Source of the DNA: Cokeromyces recurvatus
Taxonomy: Eukaryota > Mucoromycota > Mucoromycetes > Mucorales > Mucoraceae
Assembly: GCF_025118155.1 (NCBI RefSeq)
Contig: NW_026251406.1
Location: forward strand, 131,501 to 195,500
DNA: 64,000 nt
Reading direction: 5' to 3'
A program made the translations under genes and the position numbers. The notes beneath the pieces are model-generated. The model saw only the letters and a list, made by a program, of their open reading frames with translations, was not told the origin of the DNA and did not search any database. This document shows positions 6,883 to 57,320 of the stretch, piece after piece (within the stretch, counting starts at the first letter, position 1; each line of letters starts with the position of its first letter).

Positions 6883-7729
6883 TTAGTGTGATTCTTTGCC
6901 CTTTTTTGTTGTAGTCGTCTTCTTCTTTTTGATAGTATGGACTTTTTGTTTAGGAAGAGAATGACAGCGGACATATTTTCCAGAATTGTTTTGGATACGC
7001 TCATCATGTGCAGGATACCCGATACAGATAGCAGAAGAAGAAGGGGACTTTTTCTTATCTACATTTTTCTTCTTGGTGGTCTTTTTGGCAGGAGTTGACT
7101 TTTTAGCTGACTTTTTTGTAATTGATTTCTTTTGACGAGTGGTGGTGGTGGTGGTAGTGGTGGTGGTCTTCTTTGTACTCTTCTTCTTCTGTGTCGTCTT
7201 TTTATGTTTAGTTGTAGTTGATTTAAAATACTTGTTCTTAATATGAATATAGCCTGCAAACGAAATATCATTCGCACTTGGCCCTGCTTCAATTACACTT
7301 AAAAAAAAAAAAAAGAAAGTAAATACAAATATGAACATAAACATAGACTACATTACATGCTTACTATTTCTTTGGTTTAAGACTTTTGGGAATCTTCCAT
7401 GAATAATGACCCAAGGAAGCATCGACATTATCAGCAATAAGACCATTAATGACAAGAGCCTTTGAAGGACCAGAAGCGTATTGAAGACGAATAGGTTTTG
7501 TATCTTCATCATTGACATTCCTGTTAAGCAAAGTTTCAGGTTTTAATAAATAAAAACAAAAAAAAAACGAATGATAATAAAAGACGTTTTAAAGTGTATT
7601 ATAGTACCATTTGATTTGTACAGTAGATCCAGCTTCCCATACATCATTTGGTTTTGGAGAAGTTAAACTAATAGAACTTGCCCATGCAAATGAAAACGAT
7701 AACCAAATCAAGACTAAAGATTTCAACAT
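6883..7729 (-). CDS. Secreted Kre9/Knh1-like N-terminal domain protein with Lys/Thr-rich tail
   Basis: Three exons: 7608-7729, 7365-7520 and 6883-7297; 693 nt, 230 residues. It begins with a signal peptide (MLKSLVLIWLSFSFAWAS). Next comes the motif found in the Ig-like Kre9/Knh1-type domain of fungal surface proteins (SLTSPKPNDVWEAGSTVQI; later PIRLQYASGP and HYSWKIPKSL). The second half departs from the usual Ser/Thr-rich GPI tail. It is a very basic Lys/Thr block with one T10 run, a Cys-containing segment (ICIGYPAHDE, YVRCHSL), then a Lys/Thr tail. No GPI-like hydrophobic C terminus is seen. It is probably extracellular or wall-associated, with unknown function. Confidence 0.75.
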
Positions 7730-8191
7730 TTTTTATTTTTTATAAATAAAGGAATGGGATGAGTAAAAAGTCTAATAGAAACAAAGAGAGAAATGAGGAA
7801 TAAAATAATATATATTTTTTTTTTATTTTATCATACAATAATTTACGGTAATAAATTTAGTCATACATTTGTTTTTATCCTAGCTTATTATTGTAGATCC
7901 TTACAAAGTAACACAAACAATAGAACAGAAACAGGCACGCTAACCATTACTATATTACGATTAAACATTTTTATTATTTTTATAAATTAAAATTTATAAA
8001 ATGACCTATAAGCACATAATACCTTTGTTATATTAGATTGCCCAGGTCAGTTCAAATTGTGTGGAAAAAAAAAAGTATCTAAAAACCCTCTTACGGGACA
8101 AGAGGTAAAAAGGCAAAGGAAAGGAAGAAGAGAAGATGATAAAGAAAGGAGGGGAATATTGCTAACAAGTTGAAAGGGACAACCAGTTGAG
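7730..8191. other. Intergenic, no gene seen
   Basis: Promoter side of the Kre9-like gene, ending at a mobile-element relic. No recognisable coding sequence. Confidence 0.5.
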
Positions 8192-8582
8192 TCATTTCCT
8201 GTCTAGGTCAAGAAGTGGAGGTGGTAATTCGTCGTGTATTAAGTAATCCATTTCCTGTAGAATGGTGCACACAACTGGCCAGCGATAAAGCCAGGCAGAA
8301 ACATCTTGAGAATTTCGGTACTTCTGCTGAGGAAGATGATTTAAAAGAAAGGAAAGGGGATCTGCAATTGATCGTGGCAAGAATAAACGGGTGTGTATGT
8401 GCAAGCATTTAGTGGCATGTGACCGACCAAAGTGTACATAAGGATGATAGAGGCAGGCTTTAGGTATTCCTTCGGGTAGCCAACCAAGACGCCATCGAAT
8501 AGTTCGATTACGCTCACTGTGTGTCATGGGTAACCAGAGTATCGGATCAATAATCAGATTGGGGCGGCAAGCGGGAGGGTAT
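8192..8582 (-). mobile_element. Non-LTR retrotransposon fragment (C-terminal part of reverse transcriptase)
   Basis: About 130 open codons on the minus strand. Landmarks: CRPNLIIDPILWLPM, HSERNRTIRWRLGWLP, a Cys-His-His-Cys knuckle (C..YHP, then FGRSHATKC), RSIADPLSFLLNHLP and WLYRWPVVCTIL. I recognise these as the C terminus of LINE-like reverse transcriptases abundant in Mucorales genomes. The polymerase domain is absent, so this is a truncated relic. Base composition is less AT-rich than the surroundings. A second, homologous but more damaged fragment lies at 10741-11020 in the opposite orientation. Confidence 0.75.
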
Positions 8583-8608
8583 ATTTTATTTCAAATTCAG
8601 ACGATGTT

Positions 8609-8610
<2 letters not shown>

Positions 8611-8649
<39 letters not shown>
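8611..8649. repeat. T39 homopolymer
   Basis: Pure T run between the reverse-transcriptase fragment and the Fanzor relic; on the minus strand it is A39 about 85 nt after the Fanzor stop. Confidence 0.95.
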
Positions 8650-8650
<1 letters not shown>

Positions 8651-8734
8651 AACGAAACAAAAATGGAAATTAGATAAAAAGAAAAAAAACAACAGTTTTC
8701 GGACAATCAAGTGTATGTATGTAAGTTACCTGCA

Positions 8735-10634
8735 TCATACTTTTACTCTATCAGTATTTCCTCCCTCAGGAGAACCGTCGTCGGGAGGCATAGAGCGGAC
8801 TTTTTTGGAAGTGGAAGTGGTGGTGCTTGTTGAAGCACGTTTTGATGTTTCCCTTTTGAATCTAGAGGAGCGACCAAGGGCTTGCCTGTGGCTTAACACA
8901 ATATCTCTAAAATTCAAAACGGTAGCCAAGTCTCTGTTCCAGAGTCGAGAAGGCACTAAACATTTTTGATTTGTACATCTAGCGAAAGAAAATATAAGAA
9001 ATTGTCTTTTTTTTAAAAAAATAAAAAAAAATAAAATAAAACTGATGTTTACCGTAACAGGCCGTGGTACTCGACTACTGGATACTTGCCTCGCATATGC
9101 AGTCGAGGGTTCTTGACATGAGATAATTTTCTCAACTTCCCATTTTTACATTCGGGGAAGAACAACGATGTCTTGTATTCGTCTAACAAGTATACTTGTA
9201 ACCCTTCTTTCTTCAACATCCTCCTCATACCAACACCTCTGATAGGTTCGTGATATTTTGTATTACTGGCGAACCAGTTGCCAAGAACAAGTACACAGTC
9301 ATCACCGAATTTTTGCTTTAACGTCTTTGCCAGACGGGCGTCTGATTGTTTCCTATTGATATTAGAGGAAAGCTTTATTTTCCTGAAAGGAAGTGATCCA
9401 GGATAATCACTTCGATAATAGTTTGAAAGGAGATTGCTTGCATCTCATCTTGCTTCTAAATATCTAGAGTACTTCTGGGGATCAACTGTCGAAGTGGAAT
9501 GCGTAGTCAAAAACTATTTCCAAATCACTGACTGTCTTGGGCTTGTTTTACTGACGAAATTTCCTAAATTTCCTTGACTTTGTCTCCTTAGCCCTTTGAT
9601 TGATGGTGTACCGATATATGAAGCTATCGTGTCTTGATTCGCGTTTCTCGCCCATGCAAAATAACACATCCCTTCTACCAGGATCTATAAATATGCATTT
9701 GATGGTGGTACGTTGAAGCTCTTTGTTGTTCAACTTATCGATATATTGAAACTCGTTTTTGTCTGTTTGCAAACTTTTACTGGTATTTCTTGTGCCTCCT
9801 TTGCTGGTTTCCTTGTTTTGTTTCAATATCGAGACCCCAACACCATCTGTATGGATCATTCCACGAAACTTGAGTGACTTTGCATCACCTTGATCTTTTA
9901 GAGCCTTGCAGGAAATGTTGACGACTTTTCCCCCCAAATAAGGTTTTTATCTAGTTTTGATCTTTGGGGAATCTTCCAAAATAGTGTTATTTAATATTAT
10001 AGAATTAATGGTGACATAACATGGTATATGAGTTCGCCTTCATGGGAAGCATGCGAATGATTTGGAACCTAAACATTCACACAAATCAGCTAATTTATAA
10101 TATGCTTTTAAGTGAGTAATAGGACTCGCTTTGCAGTCATAATAAATGTTGTTGTTCTTGAATTTATATTGTGAACTGTAAATGCAAAAAAAAAAAAAAA
10201 ATCTTGTATATGCGCGATCGCTTCTTCGGTTAACTGATCCACAGGTAAACTTTGGATATTTCCTGAAGCAACTGATAACTTCAATTGAGTGCAAGGTTGT
10301 GTTATCTCGTTTTTAATGTTAATCTCTTCTTCAGCCACTTTTCGCTTTTTCAATATTTTTCTTCTTGCCGCTGTTCTGTCTTTTTGCTGTGTCAGTAAAT
10401 TTACGAACATCCTAAGCTTATTGCCAAATTACAGCATGATGCCGTTTTTGTAGGCAGTATCTATCTTTGCACACTCGTATGCAGCAATTTTGTTGAGAAT
10501 ATTTCAATTCTAAGAGGGGGTATAGCCACATAATCTACACTATTCGTTCAAGTATTTCTTAATCAAATTTCTAAACTCTGTGATTTTAGTTGATTTTGTA
10601 GGTGGTAACTTCTTCGTATGTTGCACAAGTGACG

Positions 10635-10672
<38 letters not shown>

Positions 10673-10722
10673 TGTATGTAGAAGTCTTTTTCAGCATATT
10701 TTTTTGATATCGAACGCTTCAC
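8735..10722 (-). pseudogene. Fanzor-like (eukaryotic TnpB/OrfB-type RNA-guided nuclease) relic
   Basis: Minus-strand copy of a Fanzor/TnpB-type gene with stops and frameshifts. In order: a basic N terminus (KKYAEKDFYIQ, TEFRNLIKKYL; about 10722-10540); a helical part (LTQQKDRTAARRKILKK, SLPVDQLTEEAIAHIQ; 10410-10200), frameshifted at a T run; LKAYYKLADLCE; the wedge/RuvC region 9937-9548 with FRGMIHTDGVGVSIL, RuvC-I FIDPGRRDVLF (Asp codon 9683-9685) and RYTINQRAKETK; then LPFRKIKL and VLVLGNW. RuvC-II is LLDEYKTS (Glu codon 9178-9180) and RuvC-III is NRDLATVLNF (Asp codon 8930-8932). A zinc-ribbon remnant shows FFPEC, with the expected first Cys replaced by Phe, then CTNQKC. A 74-nt intron (8979-9052) still splits the ribbon in frame. 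In-frame stops include 9548-9550, 9455-9457, one near 10040 and a TAA between that one and 9937. Non-functional as it stands. Confidence 0.8.
10635..10670. repeat. A36 homopolymer
   Basis: Pure A run inside the N-terminal part of the Fanzor relic; it interrupts that reading frame. Confidence 0.95.
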
Positions 10723-10740
10723 ATCTTTTTAATTCACTGA

Positions 10741-11020
10741 TGAATAAACCCCAAGCCTGCCCCTTCCATCCAAATGAACTCTTCACACGCTCACATAGTT
10801 TTTCTTGTTTGCATATGCATAACTGCCTTCAGATGCCCCAAATCTATTGAAGATCCACTCTCTTATCTCTTGAATCTCCTATTACCATCAACATTCCTTA
10901 CTAAGGAAAGTGAGAAAATCATTTGATGCCTGGCTCATACGCTGGCCTTCCGTATGTGCAATTCTGCTTGGAGATGGACTATCCAGCTTCACTCCCAAAT
11001 CCCCGAACCCTCTGACCATC
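10741..11020 (+). mobile_element. Second non-LTR reverse-transcriptase C-terminal fragment
   Basis: Plus-strand relic homologous to the fragment at 8192-8582: QACPFHP, FTRSHSFSCLHMHNCLQMP, then after a frameshift SIEDPLSYLLNLLLPS, and after a further frame change AWLIRWPSVCAIL. At least two frameshifts break it. The two fragments differ at many positions, so they come from separate insertions or old, diverged copies rather than a recent inverted duplication. Confidence 0.7.
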
Positions 11021-11398
11021 ATCTTTTTTCAATACAACAATGATTTTCTGATAGTTAATTATCATCACTTATACATACACTTTAACATTTTCCCTTTTAT
11101 CCCAAAAGGGTTTTTTCTTTCCATAGTGATCTGATCGGGACAAAACAGCATATATAAATGCTATGTGCTCATTGGTCATTTTTTTTAATTTTTTAAATAA
11201 AATTCTTCTTTAATCGTACTATTGTAAAGGACCCAGTTTTGGGAGAGTAAGAATTTTTTTTTTTAAGGATTTCTATATTTTCTTTCCCCTCTCGCCTCCT
11301 TCCATATACACACACACACACACACACACACCCTTTAGACGACGACGACGACGACAACGGCTGAGAATAATAGAATGAAATGTAAAGTTTATTATGAT
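11021..11398. other. Intergenic with (CA)n and (GAC)n microsatellites
   Basis: A (CA)n run lies at about 11309-11331 and a (GAC)n run at about 11338-11354. No gene seen. Confidence 0.6.
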
Positions 11399-12684
11399 TT
11401 AGGCAACTATAATATGTTGAAAAGTTTTCTCTTGAATTTCCTTTTCTAGAATAGCTTTATGATTCTTTCTCTTTTGTCTCTCTTCAAAGCTATACATGAA
11501 TCATATATATTTATTTAAATAAATGTATTACAGATGATAATAATAAACTTACATGACTCTATTTTCAACAATTCGATTAATGATGCCTTGTGTTGTAATG
11601 GTATGATTAGGATTATCGATTTCTATATACATATTGCGTTCTTTTGGCAACTACAAAAAAAAAAAAAAAAAAAAAAAAGTCAGAAAAGAGAGAAAAGCTA
11701 TATAGTCCTTTTATAAAGAGGACTTACTTGGTAAGGATCTTTGCCATCTAGATCTGGATCAGTGGGAGTATTTCCATGCACAACTAGACTCACACGATAT
11801 TCTTTACTTAGCACATCTTCCGTCACACTATAAGGTGCACCCAAGATGACTTCATCTACATAACGACATGCCAACACACTTAGAGCACGTTCATGCAAGT
11901 TCATCAAAGGGTAATTTGAACCCTTGATAGCATTGACCGTTTGATCATCATGTATACCCACTACCAAAAAATCCCCTAGTGTCTTGGCTCTCTTTAAGAA
12001 TTCAATATGACCTACATGAAAGAGATCAAAGGTACCATCTACATAGACTACACGATCTGTAGGCTTTGGTTCACGACCGTCCGCGAATTGAACAATACGT
12101 TTTGAAGTAGGTAAAAAATGAGATACTCTACTATTATTTGTTGTCGATGATGAATGACTAATAAAGGACTTGACAGCTTCCTCACGATTACCAACTACGT
12201 GTCGTTGTTGTTTATGATGATGCTCTTTTGATAAGAGCAACATACGACCTACTAATTCAGTTGTCGAAACACCCACAGTACGTTTACATTCCTTATATAA
12301 ACCAGCATCCTTGACAGCTTGATAACAATCCGTACCATCTGCCATCGTCGTCACATCATCACCATGTACACAAAAATCAATATGATGTTGCTTTAAACAT
12401 TCCACAGTTGTGTTATAAGGTGCATCCCTGACTACCTCATCTACCCATTTACAAGCTTCCACTGCTGCATAACGTTCCTCTTCGTTCATGACCGTGGGCC
12501 CCTTATTGATCTCAATAGACTGATCTGAATGAACACCTACAACAAGAATATCCCCCATCGATTTAGCTTGACGAAGTGCATTTGCATGTCCATAGTGCAT
12601 CATATCAAAGCAACCATCGACCCAGACTCTATCATCATCATCATTATTATTTATTTCAAAGCTTAAGAAACATTCAAAGTACAC
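11399..12684 (-). CDS. ECT1: CTP:phosphoethanolamine cytidylyltransferase
   Basis: Exons: 11728 to about 12684, 11553-11650 and 11399-11489, joined in frame. Two nucleotidyltransferase domains are obvious. The first has RVWVDGCFDMMHYGHANAL, the second VVYVDGTFDLFHVGHIEFL; each carries the HxGH CTP-binding motif, and a TTELVGRMLL motif closes the first. It makes CDP-ethanolamine in the Kennedy pathway for phosphatidylethanolamine. The conserved ending (IINRIVENR, then FEERQKRKNH) comes from the two small exons. About 381 residues, the normal size. The 5' end is unresolved: no ATG lies in frame before the first HYGH motif. The only upstream ATG (12741-12743) opens MSTVNSQLNKGSL and stops at a TAA one base before the single usable GT donor. 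Coordinates give the open frame only. Confidence 0.88.
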
Positions 12685-50752: not shown

Positions 50753-53700
50753 ATGACAATAACAACACATAATACTTCTTGGGCAGAATCTATTCCATCT
50801 GCTCAAGGTTTATATAATCCTGAATATGAAAAAGATGCTTGTGGTGTTGGTTTTATGGTTCATATAAAAGGCGAACGTTCTCATAAAATTTTATCTGAAG
50901 CCAGTCATATCCTTTGCAACATGACTCATCGTGGTGCTAGTGGTGCTGATATTCGTGATGGTGATGGTGCTGGTGTTATGACAGGTAAATAAATGTTTGG
51001 TAAACAAGTTTTTTTTTCTTTTCTTTTCTTTTTTAATAAACAAAAATCCTTTCCTTTTTCTTCTTTTTACAACAATAAGGTATTCCTCATCAGTTCTTTG
51101 TCAATGAAACATCGCGTGAATTAGGTATTAGATTGCCTCAAGAAGGTCATTACGCAGTAGGCAATTTATTTATGAAGGGAGAACAAACATCTATTATGGA
51201 AAGTCAAAAAGTATTTGAACAGTTAGCAGATGCCCTCCATTTGAAGGTACTTGGTTGGCGTAAAGTACCTGTAGATTCAACTATCATTGGTCCTGCTGCT
51301 CGTTCTAAGGAACCAGCTATCATGCAACCCTTTGTCATCCTCAATAATGATGTTGAATTTGATGAGCCTTACTTTGAGCGTCAGCTTTATGTCTTGCGTA
51401 AACATGCTACTCATACAATCACAATGAAGAAATGGTTTTATGTCTGTTCACTTTCAAATAAGAATATTGTCTATAAAGGACAGTTGACACCTAAGCAAGT
51501 ATATTCCTATTTTCATGATTTAAATAATGTACAATATACCACTCATTTTGCCTTGGTTCATTCTCGTTTTTCAACAAATACATTTCCTTCTTGGGATCGT
51601 GCACAACCTATGCGATGGTGTGCTCATAATGGTAAGTTATTAATAAATAATAAGGAAAGCGGAAGTTTTTTTTTTTGATTAATTTTTATTTTATTTTATT
51701 CATTTATTTATTCTTTTTTTTTTTCCCTTTTGTTATAGGTGAAATTAATACAGTACGTGGTAATAAGAATTGGATGAGATCAAGAGAAGGTGTGATGACT
51801 TCAGATACCTTTGGAAATGAATTAGATCTCCTTTATCCAATTATTGAGGAAGGTGGATCTGATTCTGCTGCATTTGATAATGTACTCGAACTCTTGGTCA
51901 TCAACGGTGTCTTGACATTACCTGAGGCTGTCATGATGATGATTCCAGAGGCATGGCAAAATAATGAAGCCATGAGTCCTGACATGAAGGCCTTTTATCG
52001 TTGGGCTGCTTCTTTAATGGAACCCTGGGATGGTCCTGCTCTGTTTACCTTTTCGGATGGTCGTTACTGTGGTGCCTCATTAGATCGTAATGGTCTTCGT
52101 CCTTGTCGTTACTATTTAACTTCTGATGATATCATGATCTGTGCCTCTGAAGTAGGTACCGTCTTTGTGGACCCTGAAACAATTGTTGAAAAGGGTCGTT
52201 TAAAACCAGGTCGTATGTTGTTGGTAGATACGATAAAAGGTAAAATCGTAGATGATCGACAACTCAAGTTACAGACAGCTGCTAAACGTCCCTTCCGTGA
52301 ATGGATTGAACGTCAAGCGATTCATTTGAAAGAGGTTGTGAATCGATATGATAAAGAACGGCAACAGCAACAATATGAATTGGATGAAACAACGGTTCAA
52401 ACAGATCCTCGTCTCAAGGCCTTTGGTTACACACTTGAACAATTCAATTTAATCATAGCTCCCTTAGCTTCTACTGGTAAAGAACCCCTGGGTTCGATGG
52501 GCAATGATACCGCTCTAGCCTGTTTAGCTGAACAACCTCGTCTCATCTATGAATACTTTCGTGAATTATTTGCTCAAGTCACAAATCCACCTATTGACCC
52601 CATTCGTGAAGAAATTGTCATGTCACTTGAATGTTATGTGGGTCCAGAGGGGAACATCTTGGAGATAGCTGAGGAGCAATGTCACAAGTTGGCTTTATCT
52701 TCTCCCATTCTATCTATGGACGAATTGGCTGCAATTCAACGTATGGATCAGCATTATGGTTGGAAGGTAGCTACGATCGATATTACATTTGATAAGACAG
52801 AAGGTGTTGAAGGTTATGTCAATACCTTGGAACGTATCTGTCAAGAAGTCTCAGAGGCTATTCAAAATGACTACAAAATTCTTGTCCTCTCCGATAGGGC
52901 CGTTAATAAGGATCGTGTTGCCATCTCTAGTTTAATTGCTGCAGGGGGTGTACATCATTATCTGGTACGTACTAAGCAACGAAGTCGTATTGCATTGATG
53001 GTTGAGACAGGTGAAGCAAGAGAGGTACATCATTTTTGTGTTCTATTAGGTTACGGTGTAGACGCTATCTGTCCTTACCTGGCTCTAGAGGCCATACTCA
53101 AGTTACATCGTGAGAGAGCTATTATCTCAAATGATTTAACACCCAAGCAACTGATCTATAACTTTAAAAAGGGGATTGATAATGGTATTCAAAAAGTCAT
53201 GTCCAAGATGGGTATCTCTACCTTGGCCTCTTATAAAGGTGCACAAATCTTTGAAGCCCTTGGGATTGATGATTCCGTCATTTCACGTTGCTTTTCAGGT
53301 ACAGCGAGTCGTATTAAGGGTGTTACATTCGATATCTTTGCCTTAGATGCCCTAACATTACATGAGGCCGGTTATCCATCTCGTAATAAAGTTCAGCCTG
53401 TATCATTACCAGAATCAGGTGAATACCATTGGCGTGATGGCGGTGCTCCTCATATTGCCGAACCCAACGGTATTGCAAACTTACAAGATGCTGTTCGACA
53501 AAAGAATCAATCCTCCTACGATGCCTATTCACGTAATGCTTATGAAGCTATCAAGAGATGTACCCTGAGGGGTCTGTTGGAATTTGATTATGAGAATTCA
53601 AGGCCTATACCCCTGGAGGAGGTGGAAAGTTGGGATAAGATTGTGAAAAGATTTGTAACAGGTGCCATGTCGTATGGTTCTATCTCGATGGAGGCTCACT

Positions 53701-56700
53701 CATCTTTAGCTATCGCCATGAATCGTTTAGGTGGCAAGTCTAATACAGGTGAAGGTGGTGAAAAACCTGAACGCTCTATACCATTAGAGGATGGCTCCTC
53801 AATGCGTTCTGCAATCAAACAAGTCGCCTCAGGTCGTTTTGGTGTCACGAGTTTCTATTTATCTGATTCAGATGAATTACAAATTAAGATGGCACAAGGT
53901 GCAAAGCCGGGTGAAGGTGGTGAATTGGCTGGTTCCAAGGTCTCAGAGGAGATTGCGTCTACTAGAAAGACAACACCTGGTATTGGACTTATCTCTCCAC
54001 CTCCACATCATGACATTTACTCTATTGAAGATCTTAAACAGTTAATCTATGACTTGAAATGCGCTAATCCAAGATCGCGTGTCTCTGTCAAACTGGTATC
54101 TGAGGTCGGCGTTGGTATTGTGGCTGCTGGTGTAGCAAAGGCAAAGGCAGATCATATTTTAATTTCAGGTCATGACGGTGGTACCGGTGCCTCTCGTTGG
54201 ACAGGTATTAAATATGCTGGTTTACCTTGGGAGTTGGGTCTTGCCGAGACACATCAAACATTGGTGCTGAATGATTTGCGTGGTCGTGTGATAGTCCAGA
54301 CAGATGGTCAAATCAAGACAGGTCGAGATGTGGCGATTGCCTGTTTATTAGGTGCTGAAGAATGGGGTTTCGCTACTACACCTCTTATCGCTCTCGGATG
54401 TATCATGATGAGAAAATGTCATTTAAACACATGTCCTGTAGGTATCGCTACACAAGATCCTGAGCTTCGCAAGAAATTTGAAGGTACCTCTGAGGATGTG
54501 ATTAACTTCTTTTATTATCTGGCTGAGGAGATGCGTGGTTACATGGCCAAGTTGGGTTTCCGAACCGTCAATGAGATGGTAGGTCATGCGGAAAGACTCA
54601 AGGTGAACGAATCCTTAAGGACCTTCAAGACGGCTAACCTTGATCTCTCTCCAATCCTTACACCTGCTGCCTCTCTTAGACCTGATGTAGCAAATTACTG
54701 TATTACCAAACAAAAACATAACTTGCATATTCGTCTTGACAATTACTTTATTGAAGAGTCTGAAGCTGCTCTTACGAATAGCCAGCCTGTTATGATTGAA
54801 GCAGATGTCGTTAATACTGATCGCGCCTTGGGGACAACACTCTCTTATCATGTCTCTAAACGTCACGGTGAAGCTGGTTTACCACCTAAAACGATTCATA
54901 TTAAACTTAGGGGCTCAGCGGGTCAATCCCTGGGTGCCTTCTTGGCTCCTGGCATCTTTATTGAGCTTGAAGGTGACTCTAATGATTATGTTGGCAAGGG
55001 TTTGTCGGGTGGAGAGATCGCTATCTATCCTCCCAAGAATTCAACTTTCAAGTCGGAAGAAAATATCATTGTAGGTAATGTCTGTCTTTACGGGGCAACA
55101 AGTGGACGTGCATTCTTTAGAGGTATTGCAGCAGAACGTTTCTGTGTTCGTAACTCAGGTGCTTCTGCTGTCTGTGAGGGTGTAGGCGATCATGGTTGTG
55201 AATATATGACAGGTGGTCGTGTTGTGATTTTAGGATCCACAGGTCGTAACTTTGCTGCAGGTATGTCCGGTGGTATTGCCTATGTTTTAGATATCTCTAG
55301 CGACTTTAAGGAAAATGTCAACAGAGAGATGGTTGAATTAGAAACTGTGAATGAACCTGAACGTATTGCTGAACTTCGTGATTTAATTGAGGATCATCAT
55401 CATTATACAGGATCTCAAGTAGCGGATCGTGTTCTTAAAAACTTTAATGAATATCTACCCAAGTTTGTCATGGTGATGCCTACTGAATACCGAGCTCTCT
55501 TGGAAAGGGAGAAGTCCCCTAAAATCAAACAACAAAATTTATGTGAGAACTTGCACAAGAAAGTTGAACCTATTGTTGAGGACTTGGAAGATAGCGTATT
55601 AGGTGAAGAAGTGATTTTAGCTCGTCGTGCTAAACTTGACAAGGTACGTGGCTTTATGAAGTATAAGCGTAGAACAGATAGATACCGTGATGCTAAAAAG
55701 CGTACCTTGGATTGGGAGGAAATCAATCATCGTTTAACACGTTCTCAATTACATGAGCAAGGCGCTCGTTGCATGGATTGTGGTGTCCCCTTCTGTCAAT
55801 CTGATACTGGTTGTCCTATTGGTAATATTATTCCTAAATGGAACGAGCTTGTCTATAAAGATAATTGGAAAGATGCCTTAGATCGTCTTTTAATGACTAA
55901 CAACTTTCCTGAATTTACTGGTCGTGTTTGTCCTGCTGTAAGTTTTTTTTTTTTTTTTTTTTTATTTTTTTATTTTTTTTATTTTTATTATTTTTTTTTA
56001 TTTTATTTTATTTTATTTTATTTTATTTTATTTTTTCTAAAAAAAAAATTGTTACTAATGTCATCTCCCTCTTTATTTATTTTTATTTTATTTTATTTTT
56101 TTTAGCCTTGTGAAGGTGCTTGTGTATTGGGTATTAATGAACCTCCAGTAGCTATTAAGAGTATTGAGTGTGCAATTATTGATCGTGGTTTCGAGCAAGG
56201 CTGGCTTGCTCCAAAACCTCCAGTTCAACGTACTGGTAAAAGAGTAGCCATTATCGGTTCTGGTCCAGCAGGTTTAGCAGCTGCTGATCAACTTAATAAA
56301 GCAGGACATCTTGTTACTGTCTATGATCGTAATGATCGTATTGGTGGTTTACTTATGTATGGTATTCCAAATATGAAGCTTGATAAAAAGATTGTTCAGC
56401 GACGTGTTGATCTTTTAGCAGCAGAGGGGATCCAATTTGTTCCTAATGCTCATGTTGGTGTTGATGTGGATATTCATAAAATTCGATCTCAGAATGACGC
56501 ACTCATTATTGCTACAGGCGCTACTTGGCCTCGAGACCTCAAGATTCCAGGTCGTGAAGCAGATGGTATTCATTTCGCTATGGAATTTCTTCAAGCCAAT
56601 ACCAAGAGTTTACTTGATTCAGGTTTGAAAGATGGCCATTATTTATCAGCAAAGGGCAAGCATGTGATTGTGATTGGTGGAGGTGATACCGGTAATGATT

Positions 56701-57320
56701 GTATTGGTACCTCTGTCCGTCATGGATGTAAATCAGTGATTAATTTTGAATTATTACCACAGCCACCTGAGACACGTGCAGCCTCAAACCCTTGGCCTCG
56801 TTTCCCAATGGTCTTTAAAGTGGACTATGGTCACTCTGAAGTTCGTGAACATTTTGGTAAAGACCCTCGTGAATATTGTGTTCTTTCAAAAGAATTTGTT
56901 GTCGAAGATGGCCATGTAAAAGGTATCAAGACGATACGTGTTGAATGGACAAAGGATGAAGCAGGACGCTGGACGATGGCTGAAAAGCCTGGAACAGAGC
57001 AATACTTTGAAGCTGATCTTGTATTGCTTTCTATGGGGTTCTTGGGCCCTGAAGAAGCAATTATCAAGCAATTAGAAATTAAACAGGATGGTCGATCGAA
57101 CATTGAGACACCCAAGGGACAATACGTTACTTCAATACCTGGTGTATTTGCTGCAGGTGATTGCCGTCGAGGTCAGTCATTGATTGTTTGGGGAATTAAT
57201 GAAGGGCGAATGTGCGCGCGTGAAGTGGATTACCATTTAATGGGAAATACTTATTTACCTGTGACGGGTGGTATTCAACAACGTATCTTGCCTAAACTTG
57301 CAACTGGAGTGGCTGCCTAA
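50753..57320 (+). CDS. GLT1: Glutamate synthase (NADH), single-chain GOGAT
   Basis: Four exons: 50753-50984, 51080-51631, 51739-55937 and 56106-57320; 6198 nt, 2065 residues, typical of fungal Glt1. After a ~29-residue propeptide comes the N-terminal nucleophile Cys30 ([13 protein letters not shown]) of the class II glutaminase domain. Next are the central and FMN-binding synthase domains ([28 protein letters not shown]), the 3Fe-4S cysteines ([13 protein letters not shown]), the GXGXG beta helix ([21 protein letters not shown]), a linker with 4Fe-4S cysteines ([25 protein letters not shown]), then FAD and NAD sites ([28 protein letters not shown]). It makes two glutamates from glutamine and 2-oxoglutarate. 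The last intron is almost pure T/TTTTA. Confidence 0.97.

Follow-up and report, generated by a model that had tools for sequence, protein, structure and literature searches.

A probable Fanzor1 pseudogene of Cokeromyces recurvatus in a transposon of Tc1/mariner-like appearance, and LINEs inserted at the tips of related repeats

Fanzor-only mariner elements, whose inverted repeats are mariner-like and accompanied by TA, were described by Bao and Jurka in 2013 (PMC3627910), and a Fanzor in a Tc1/mariner-type carrier is thus already known in kind. The section of that paper on these elements (section 7) describes no LINE at their tips, unlike what we find in Cokeromyces recurvatus, and its section 12 lists other carriers for Mucor circinelloides, the MuDr-like MCi-4 and the unclassified MCi-2 and MCi-5. 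The same source gives the Fanzor1 pattern D-X(125-275)-[TS][TS]-X-X-C4-X(5-50)-RD. The alternative RuvC-II glutamate (Ealt) and the RuvC-I DPG criterion are defined in the relevant part of PMC10711439, and PMC11423790 reports the FRI domain from Parasitella and Rhizopus only. Among retrotransposons, Utopia (PMC4640811) is a target-specific non-LTR element, inserting at a favored or constant place within a repeated target, much as the LINEs described below appear to do. In the literature we searched, which lay mostly outside subscription papers, we found no report of LINEs targeting transposon ends, or of retrotransposons with Fanzor in Mucorales. Tx1L is reportedly a LINE residing in a Xenopus DNA transposon. 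The apparent target in Cokeromyces differs from those of both Tx1L and Utopia: it is fungal, and it lies at the tip of a mariner-type inverted repeat.

The window analyzed here is a stretch of 64,000 nucleotides (positions 131501-195500 of contig C13) in the 28.05-Mb C. recurvatus assembly. A GC-rich block far from the locus under study (51654-57320, GC 0.41-0.42) has the look of a normal gene for glutamate synthase (GOGAT), an identification made by eye on its translation. Fanzor remains occupy 8738-10745 on the minus strand. A preliminary description of this DNA, made from the letters alone, had recognized a decayed Fanzor with all three RuvC acids still encoded and with its motifs in Fanzor/TnpB order. 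Our searches bear out both points, and the phylum it had in mind, Mucoromycota, is right as well: five minus-strand pieces (8738-10428), each searched alone, match Parasitella parasitica Fanzor1 (PpFz1, PDB 9cf0) in five of five cases, colinearly and with a best E value of 2e-32. The parts of the gene are as follows, with E values for the PpFz1 match.

10543..10745, minus strand: N-terminal part (FISELKRCEAFD...), cut at 10745; matched by eye to subfamily B (see below)
10111-10428, minus strand: frame preceding RuvC-I; PpFz1 chain 651-733, E 6e-5
10043-10312, minus strand: frame preceding RuvC-I; PpFz1 chain 717-776, E 7e-11
10043..10428, minus strand: extent of these two overlapping frames, mutually shifted, from their PpFz1 matches
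9551..9946, minus strand: frame with RuvC-I FIDPGRRDVLF; PpFz1 chain 813-935, E 8e-26; 23 own-genome matches
9685-9683, minus strand: RuvC-I Asp codon GAT in the DPG of FIDPGRRDVLF, read from the sequence
9053..9444, minus strand: frame spanning the RuvC core, DEYKTS and the ribbon's first half; PpFz1 chain 1094-1206 (query 9052-9444), E 2e-32; 34 own-genome matches
9180-9178, minus strand: RuvC-II Glu codon GAA (LLDEYKTS) at the alternative position, with the ribbon's first position six residues further on
8738..8978, minus strand: last Fanzor exon with second half of the ribbon, RuvC-III NRD and C-terminal tail; PpFz1 chain 1206-1258 (query 8738-8983), E 2e-3
8932-8930, minus strand: RuvC-III Asp codon GAC (NRDLATVLNF), aligned to the NRD of PpFz1

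The catalytic D, E and D codons thus lie where they had been placed (9683-9685, 9178-9180 and 8930-8932). No profile match of its own was obtained for the N-terminal part at 10543..10745. The second match for the two best pieces is the more distant SpuFz1 (8gkh; 3e-13 and 3e-10), and the relatives L031 and L035 match PpFz1 at 7e-105 and 4e-105. Judged by sequence comparison, the colinear Fanzor1 matches of the window pieces are not due to chance. The window gene has the same colinear order as PpFz1 over chain 651-1258, and likewise the DPG, the alternative Glu, the ribbon and the NRD; it differs in being dead and, like its subfamily, in being without the probable FRI insertion of PpFz1. Beside homology to characterized Fanzor1 proteins, it has the RuvC-I DPG and, six residues ahead of the ribbon, a RuvC-II Glu (E-YKTSLF-, with F for C). 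Its DPG-to-Glu spacing of ∼165 residues is just above the 120-160 apparently used by the search expression of PMC10711439. Set against the pattern given in PMC3627910, the window has ∼171 codons from D to TS and an RD eight residues past the last Cys, and one of the four Cys is Phe.

No Fanzor/TnpB match was found among the window pieces in Pfam (7 pieces) or NCBIfam (4 pieces), probably because an intron splits the short ribbon model; in copy L024 the PF07282 ribbon match (E 0.0093) falls below the cut-off. The preliminary description had counted empty profile searches against itself, and read literally this is such a result, which is outweighed by the direct matches to a solved Fanzor. The missing Pfam and NCBIfam matches would also suit another RuvC-fold nuclease, an identity that is barely conceivable next to five colinear matches to a solved Fanzor1, the DPG, the Glu six residues before the ribbon, the ribbon itself and the NRD.

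The window Fanzor gene is dead, with stops, 1-bp and 2-bp insertions and a 5' truncation. Compared with L026 over 298 codons, it has two stops and a 1-bp insertion; the 2-bp insertion is common to the window and L026, relative to the four other aligned copies. At its 5' end the gene is cut at 10745, with LINE sequence upstream, and the window, L024 and L025 lack ∼242 bp, N-terminal codons among them, that L026 and L028 have. Of the N terminus formerly located in the interval, the N-terminal part at 10543..10745 is indeed present, and the start of the gene is not. Similarly, the stops and small insertions support the earlier claim of a gene killed by in-frame stops and frameshifts, except that one supposed frameshift is a 74-bp intron in the zinc ribbon:

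9148..9159, minus strand: first ribbon knuckle, with the first Cys changed to Phe (9159-9157) and the second Cys kept (9150-9148)
9052-8979, minus strand: GT-AG intron of 74 bp within the zinc ribbon, interrupting an Arg codon; PpFz1 is contiguous at the same point (HGLLRC)
8977-8975 and 8962-8960, minus strand: third and fourth ribbon Cys codons, 3' of the intron

The intron falls between HGLLR and CTNQKC of the window copy. Its GT and AG are both retained in the window, L026 and L028, the AG is lost in L024 and the GT in L027, and L025 switches sequence inside the intron; a GT-AG intron is found at the same ribbon codon in four copies of subfamily B and in L035. Because the supposed frameshift is an intron, the window ribbon keeps three of its four Cys codons, and its earlier description as half-lost has to be given up, only one of the four ligands being gone. 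The change of the first Cys to Phe was correctly noticed; the Phe occurs also in L028, and L024, L025 and L026 read CPKC at this knuckle. Two homopolymer tracts of 36-39 bases lie in the dead element (8611-8649 and 10635-10670, the second being poly-T on the minus strand); expansion is similar in L028 (first site) and in L045, and the tracts are short in other aligned copies. Just past the end of the Fanzor open reading frame the window has a CAG/GTRA-like 5' splice site (8725-8732). A similar site is kept at the equivalent place in L029-L031, L048, L049 and L002, across otherwise different subfamilies, and is absent in L050; it could serve splicing into the flank or shape the RNA of the right end.

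We located 70 matches to PF07282, the Fanzor ribbon model, in the genome, 60 of them above the cut-off. The subfamily of the window (A) has seven further copies, L024-L028 and the deletion derivatives L051 and L052, which have one internal deletion in common; a related subfamily B (L029-L032) shows ∼60% protein identity. An intact relative had been thought possible elsewhere in the genome. Relatives there are: counting the window, the two best fragments have 34 and 23 matches in their own genome. None of the six aligned subfamily copies is intact: L024 has lost 126 bp including RuvC-I, L025 is broken by two stops and a 1-bp deletion, L026 has no stop in the compared frame and a 2-bp insertion, L027 has four stops and a 32-bp deletion, and L028 has two stops and two deletions. 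dN/dS between subfamily copies is 0.33-0.72, which suggests that constraint has been partly lost. A single tree of the copies from common lesions was rejected, the sharing of lesions being in conflict (a 2-bp insertion in the window and L026, a 1-bp deletion in L025 and L028, a 5' deletion in the window, L024 and L025). L039, a longer relative, retains an open N-terminal frame of 653 amino acids.

A stretch of ∼100 residues in PpFz1 (chain ∼982-1092) and L035 is absent in the window, L024, L025, L026, subfamily B and L018. This RuvC insertion is probably the cyclophilin-binding FRI domain, since the spacing of its prolines (chain 1023 and 1025) fits P614/P616 as given in the FRI part of PMC11423790. 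Cokeromyces Fanzors with a PpFz1-type insertion are found at L035:4901-5860, L039:5144-7102 and L041:4106-5053, and that of L035 is without the PpFz1 proline pair.

Downstream of the gene we identified one end of the element that carries it:

8594..8611, minus strand: right terminal inverted repeat (ACTAACATCGTCTGAATT) of the Fanzor/mariner element, an exact site in the motif scan

In the window a degenerate tip of this right repeat extends to ∼8577. The 18-base motif has 97 listed sites at up to two mismatches, 14 of them exact including the window, and at up to three mismatches 153 sites are counted versus 75 for the reversed control. It lies 200-304 bp downstream and on the same strand in 15 of the 70 PF07282 matches. 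The right terminal repeat is common to several Fanzor subfamilies and reads ...ACTAACATCGTCTGAATTTGAAGTGTAAAAACTG then TA, with the tip AAAAACTG/TA; in L047 the left repeat tip is TA/CAGTTTTTACAC, and the left end reads TA/CAGTTTTTACACTTTAAATTTGGACGAAGTTAG. CAGT tips adjoining TA are seen for the family at the left end of L047 and at the right ends of L048, L049 and L052. The carrier looks like a Tc1/mariner-type transposon, as far as its ends can tell. In the window unit itself we saw neither a left repeat nor a transposase gene, and the right tip is degenerate. Beside copy L025, which ends at about window position 9008, a weak DDE_3-like frame (L011:1053-1460, E 0.029) is possibly part of a mariner transposase. 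A ∼200-bp element with both repeats (L044:800-1330) bears two L-type LINEs successively at one tip and an R-type LINE opposite. A living copy, by analogy with characterized Fanzors, would encode a protein that binds RNA from the 3' end of the gene and the right inverted repeat, takes its guide from the flank and cuts matching DNA; the window copy would have lost this function through its stops, frameshifts, missing N terminus, missing left repeat and mutated ribbon Cys. A search of 12 right ends for a conserved guide-RNA fold yielded 0 pairs, and Rfam gave no match on 7500-11700.

The interval first proposed for the element, 8735..10722, covers the gene and only the gene, which lies within a larger composite with LINE pieces at both ends:

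7951..11223, no strand (3.27 kb): composite of a LINE 3' fragment, the dead Fanzor element and a second LINE 3' fragment; homology to other loci ends at ∼7953 and 11218-11222
7951..8577, minus strand: L-type LINE, 5'-truncated, 3' end pointing left and outward; 85-91% identity to own-genome copies (40 of 97 candidates scored)
10745..11223, plus strand: R-type LINE, 5'-truncated, 3' end pointing right and outward; 81-92% identity to own-genome copies (40 of 111 candidates scored)

Both identity ranges exclude the self-match of the window piece. The ends of the composite form inverted repeats (74.7% over 75 bp, E 5e-7), and both read as LINE 3' ends. The L-type piece encodes the C terminus of an RVT_1 open reading frame (frame 8195-8590), and a longer LINE copy, L050, matches RVT_1 at 4e-22. 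A single DNA transposon with long inverted arms spanning 7951-11223 was rejected, coding potential and copy number identifying the arms as LINE 3' ends. At the right end of the window element, the LINE shows a duplication of at best six matching bases (AATATA, by eye) and none in the automated scan. Within the window the LINE at 7951-8577 is the sole plausible case of targeting, and its eroded duplication counts as no evidence for it.

The R-type LINE is joined inside the gene at one and the same base (10745) in five loci, the window, L024, L025, L051 and L052. Together with L026 and L028, which keep ∼242 bp more at this junction than the other five, these make seven loci in which an R-type LINE stands where the left repeat is expected, and in none of these seven capped units was the left repeat seen. 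Such units might have been spread by LINE copying, a transcript antisense to the Fanzor and ending in the R-type LINE 3' end having been copied as a unit by the LINE reverse transcriptase. The LINE 3' end as outer end of seven loci speaks for this route; the flanks differ, and the internal deletion common to L051 and L052 indicates that dead units moved. The other end, however, is a precise repeat tip in L024, L028 and L052 rather than a ragged 5' truncation, and no convincing duplication surrounds the whole units by eye. We therefore regard LINE copying of the subfamily as a tentative possibility, with the probabilities somewhat against it.

At repeats elsewhere in the genome the relation of LINE and tip is clearer than in the window. 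In ten LINE insertions at nine loci, the tip of the Fanzor-carrier repeat is the starting point of the target duplication. Their lengths in bases, given here, include a terminal triplet GTA/ATA that is possibly LINE-derived, and each is three shorter without it:

L031: 16
L044: 13 (two LINEs at the same base)
L049: 10
L050: 10
L052: 13
L046: 13, triplet differing
C16: 16, one mismatch
C38: 13, triplet differing
C4: 15

The LINE of C4 has an unbroken frame of 1117 amino acids, and ∼ten bases of the repeat tip are absent there; in L049, ∼130 bp of non-LINE repeat lie between tip and LINE. We had considered GTA/ATA as a proven target sequence and withdrew this, the two sides disagreeing at L046 and C38; this boundary triplet may come from the LINE and not from the target. 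The closely read loci were chosen for nearness to Fanzor or repeat, or for the presence of both LINE types, and for that reason give no frequency among all LINEs. L045 and L046 have much the same inner LINE-repeat-LINE composite, with the duplication after the LINE retained only in L046, and L045 may thus have moved or arisen by recombination. At L047 (1290 and 3775) the flank of the left tip recurs beyond the opposite LINE with two differences in 15 bases, and the interior of this composite seems inverted.

Automated scans gave a similar picture. After a LINE-like end, a duplication of at least 10 exact bases follows in 4 of 18 automatically found termini versus 1 of 2975 random positions, and one of at least six bases in 5 of 18 versus 39 of 2975. 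Of the 14 termini listed in a second scan, 5 had a duplication after the LINE end when two mismatches in 12 were tolerated and 3 when one was, with 0 of 2000 in its null (one mismatch allowed); the remaining 9 of the 14 repeat tips were without a LINE duplication, one of them (L045) having been assigned a misplaced tip. The repeat motif is also found near LINEs more often than in shifted controls. Among 79 LINE protein matches (of 84 reported, five small secondary ones being omitted; 79 of 719 first-look candidates were scored), 10 have the motif on their 5' side at a distance of up to 500 bp, the tip facing the LINE in 8 of them, and none has it on the 3' side, while shifted controls (n = 58) have a mean of 0.07 and a maximum of 1. 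For L-type DNA copies the motif lies within 3 kb on the 5' side in 13 of 40 and on the 3' side in 0 of 40 (shifted controls, n = 42, mean 0.40, maximum 2), and for R-type copies in 8 of 40 and 0 of 40 (mean 0.60, maximum 3). The L-type test used 40 of 42 matches, two secondary ones being omitted, from 40 of 97 candidates scored, and the R-type test 40 of 111; both lists contain the window copy, and some other loci are in both. Only motif sites with up to two mismatches entered the proximity tests, and this, with the partial scoring of candidates, means that missed associations are to be expected. A repeat within 3 kb was found for 12 of 32 L-type protein matches versus 3 of 47 less L-like ones, and the association is mainly with the L-type LINE.

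The association might instead be a by-product of a general LINE preference for T-rich or A-rich sites, such as happen to occur in these repeats. The repeats are A/T-rich, the window has 25-42% GC, and 69 of the 79 LINE protein matches have no recognized repeat within 500 bp, as such a preference would allow. We consider it improbable: 10 associations were observed versus 0.07 in shifted controls, the duplications start at one fixed point, the tip, with a second LINE at the same base in L044, and random positions yield 1 of 2975 versus 4 of 18 termini and, under the stricter null, 0 of 2000.

The likeliest reason for the fixed position would be that the LINE endonuclease nicks the repeat tip and that reverse transcription is primed there from the flanking strand. 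The insertions do sit at the tip; for the enzyme that nicks it we can offer an inference. Since the LINE is joined to the flank by its 3' end, with the duplication running from the tip, the primer of the first strand would have been that strand of the flank which ends at the tip, provided that ordinary target-primed reverse transcription was how the LINE moved. The fixed position, the varying far edge of the duplication and the APE-type domains in relatives point to the LINE's own endonuclease. An APE-type endonuclease is present in the Rhizopus LINE relatives P0066 and P0080, and a frame (7339-7713) of the LINE beside the L039 Fanzor falls just below the cut-off (E 5.6e-6); in none of the L-type copies of the Cokeromyces genome was one seen directly.

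The main rival for the nick at the tip is a transposase. LINEs could use nicks or breaks made by the mariner transposase (or by Fanzor) at transposon ends, priming on those 3' ends. The primed strand is the transposon 5'-end strand, which transposases also cut, and the joint lies from 1 nt inside to 2 nt outside the transposon in 9 of the 10 insertions, depending on where GTA/ATA is placed, the tenth, C4, having its tip partly deleted. Tc1 and mariner transposases, however, cut 2-3 nt inside, and a transposase cut alone yields no flank duplication of seven bases or more. Moreover, the transposon is still present beside the LINE, and the LINE relatives have an APE-type endonuclease of their own. 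We thus think a transposase nick unlikely, if less so than a mere A/T preference, and favor nicking by the LINE endonuclease.

Taken together, the window very probably holds a PpFz1-type Fanzor1 pseudogene in a non-autonomous Tc1/mariner-type carrier, at whose repeat tips the same LINE families insert elsewhere in the genome. A dead Fanzor1 copy is by itself ordinary; its surroundings are less so. This is one genome with many Fanzors, in which at least 15 ribbon matches have one transposon-end type in common, and Fanzors with and without the probable cyclophilin-binding insertion occur side by side, which makes the role of that insertion comparable between close relatives. The wider reading, for which we see the chances as evenly balanced, is that an APE-type LINE lineage in a mucoralean fungus uses as its home target a repeat tip common to several Fanzor-carrying mariner-type transposons, rewriting or silencing the Fanzor, and that some capped units lost the left repeat and yet spread. 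If this is true, the LINE lands next to the presumed first base of the Fanzor guide, so that the Fanzor is parted from the genomic site it occupied and LINE sequence enters the guide region. Should the targeting hold, it would set two mobile elements in natural conflict at the point where the Fanzor guide begins, and would provide a LINE whose DNA target is both short and defined.
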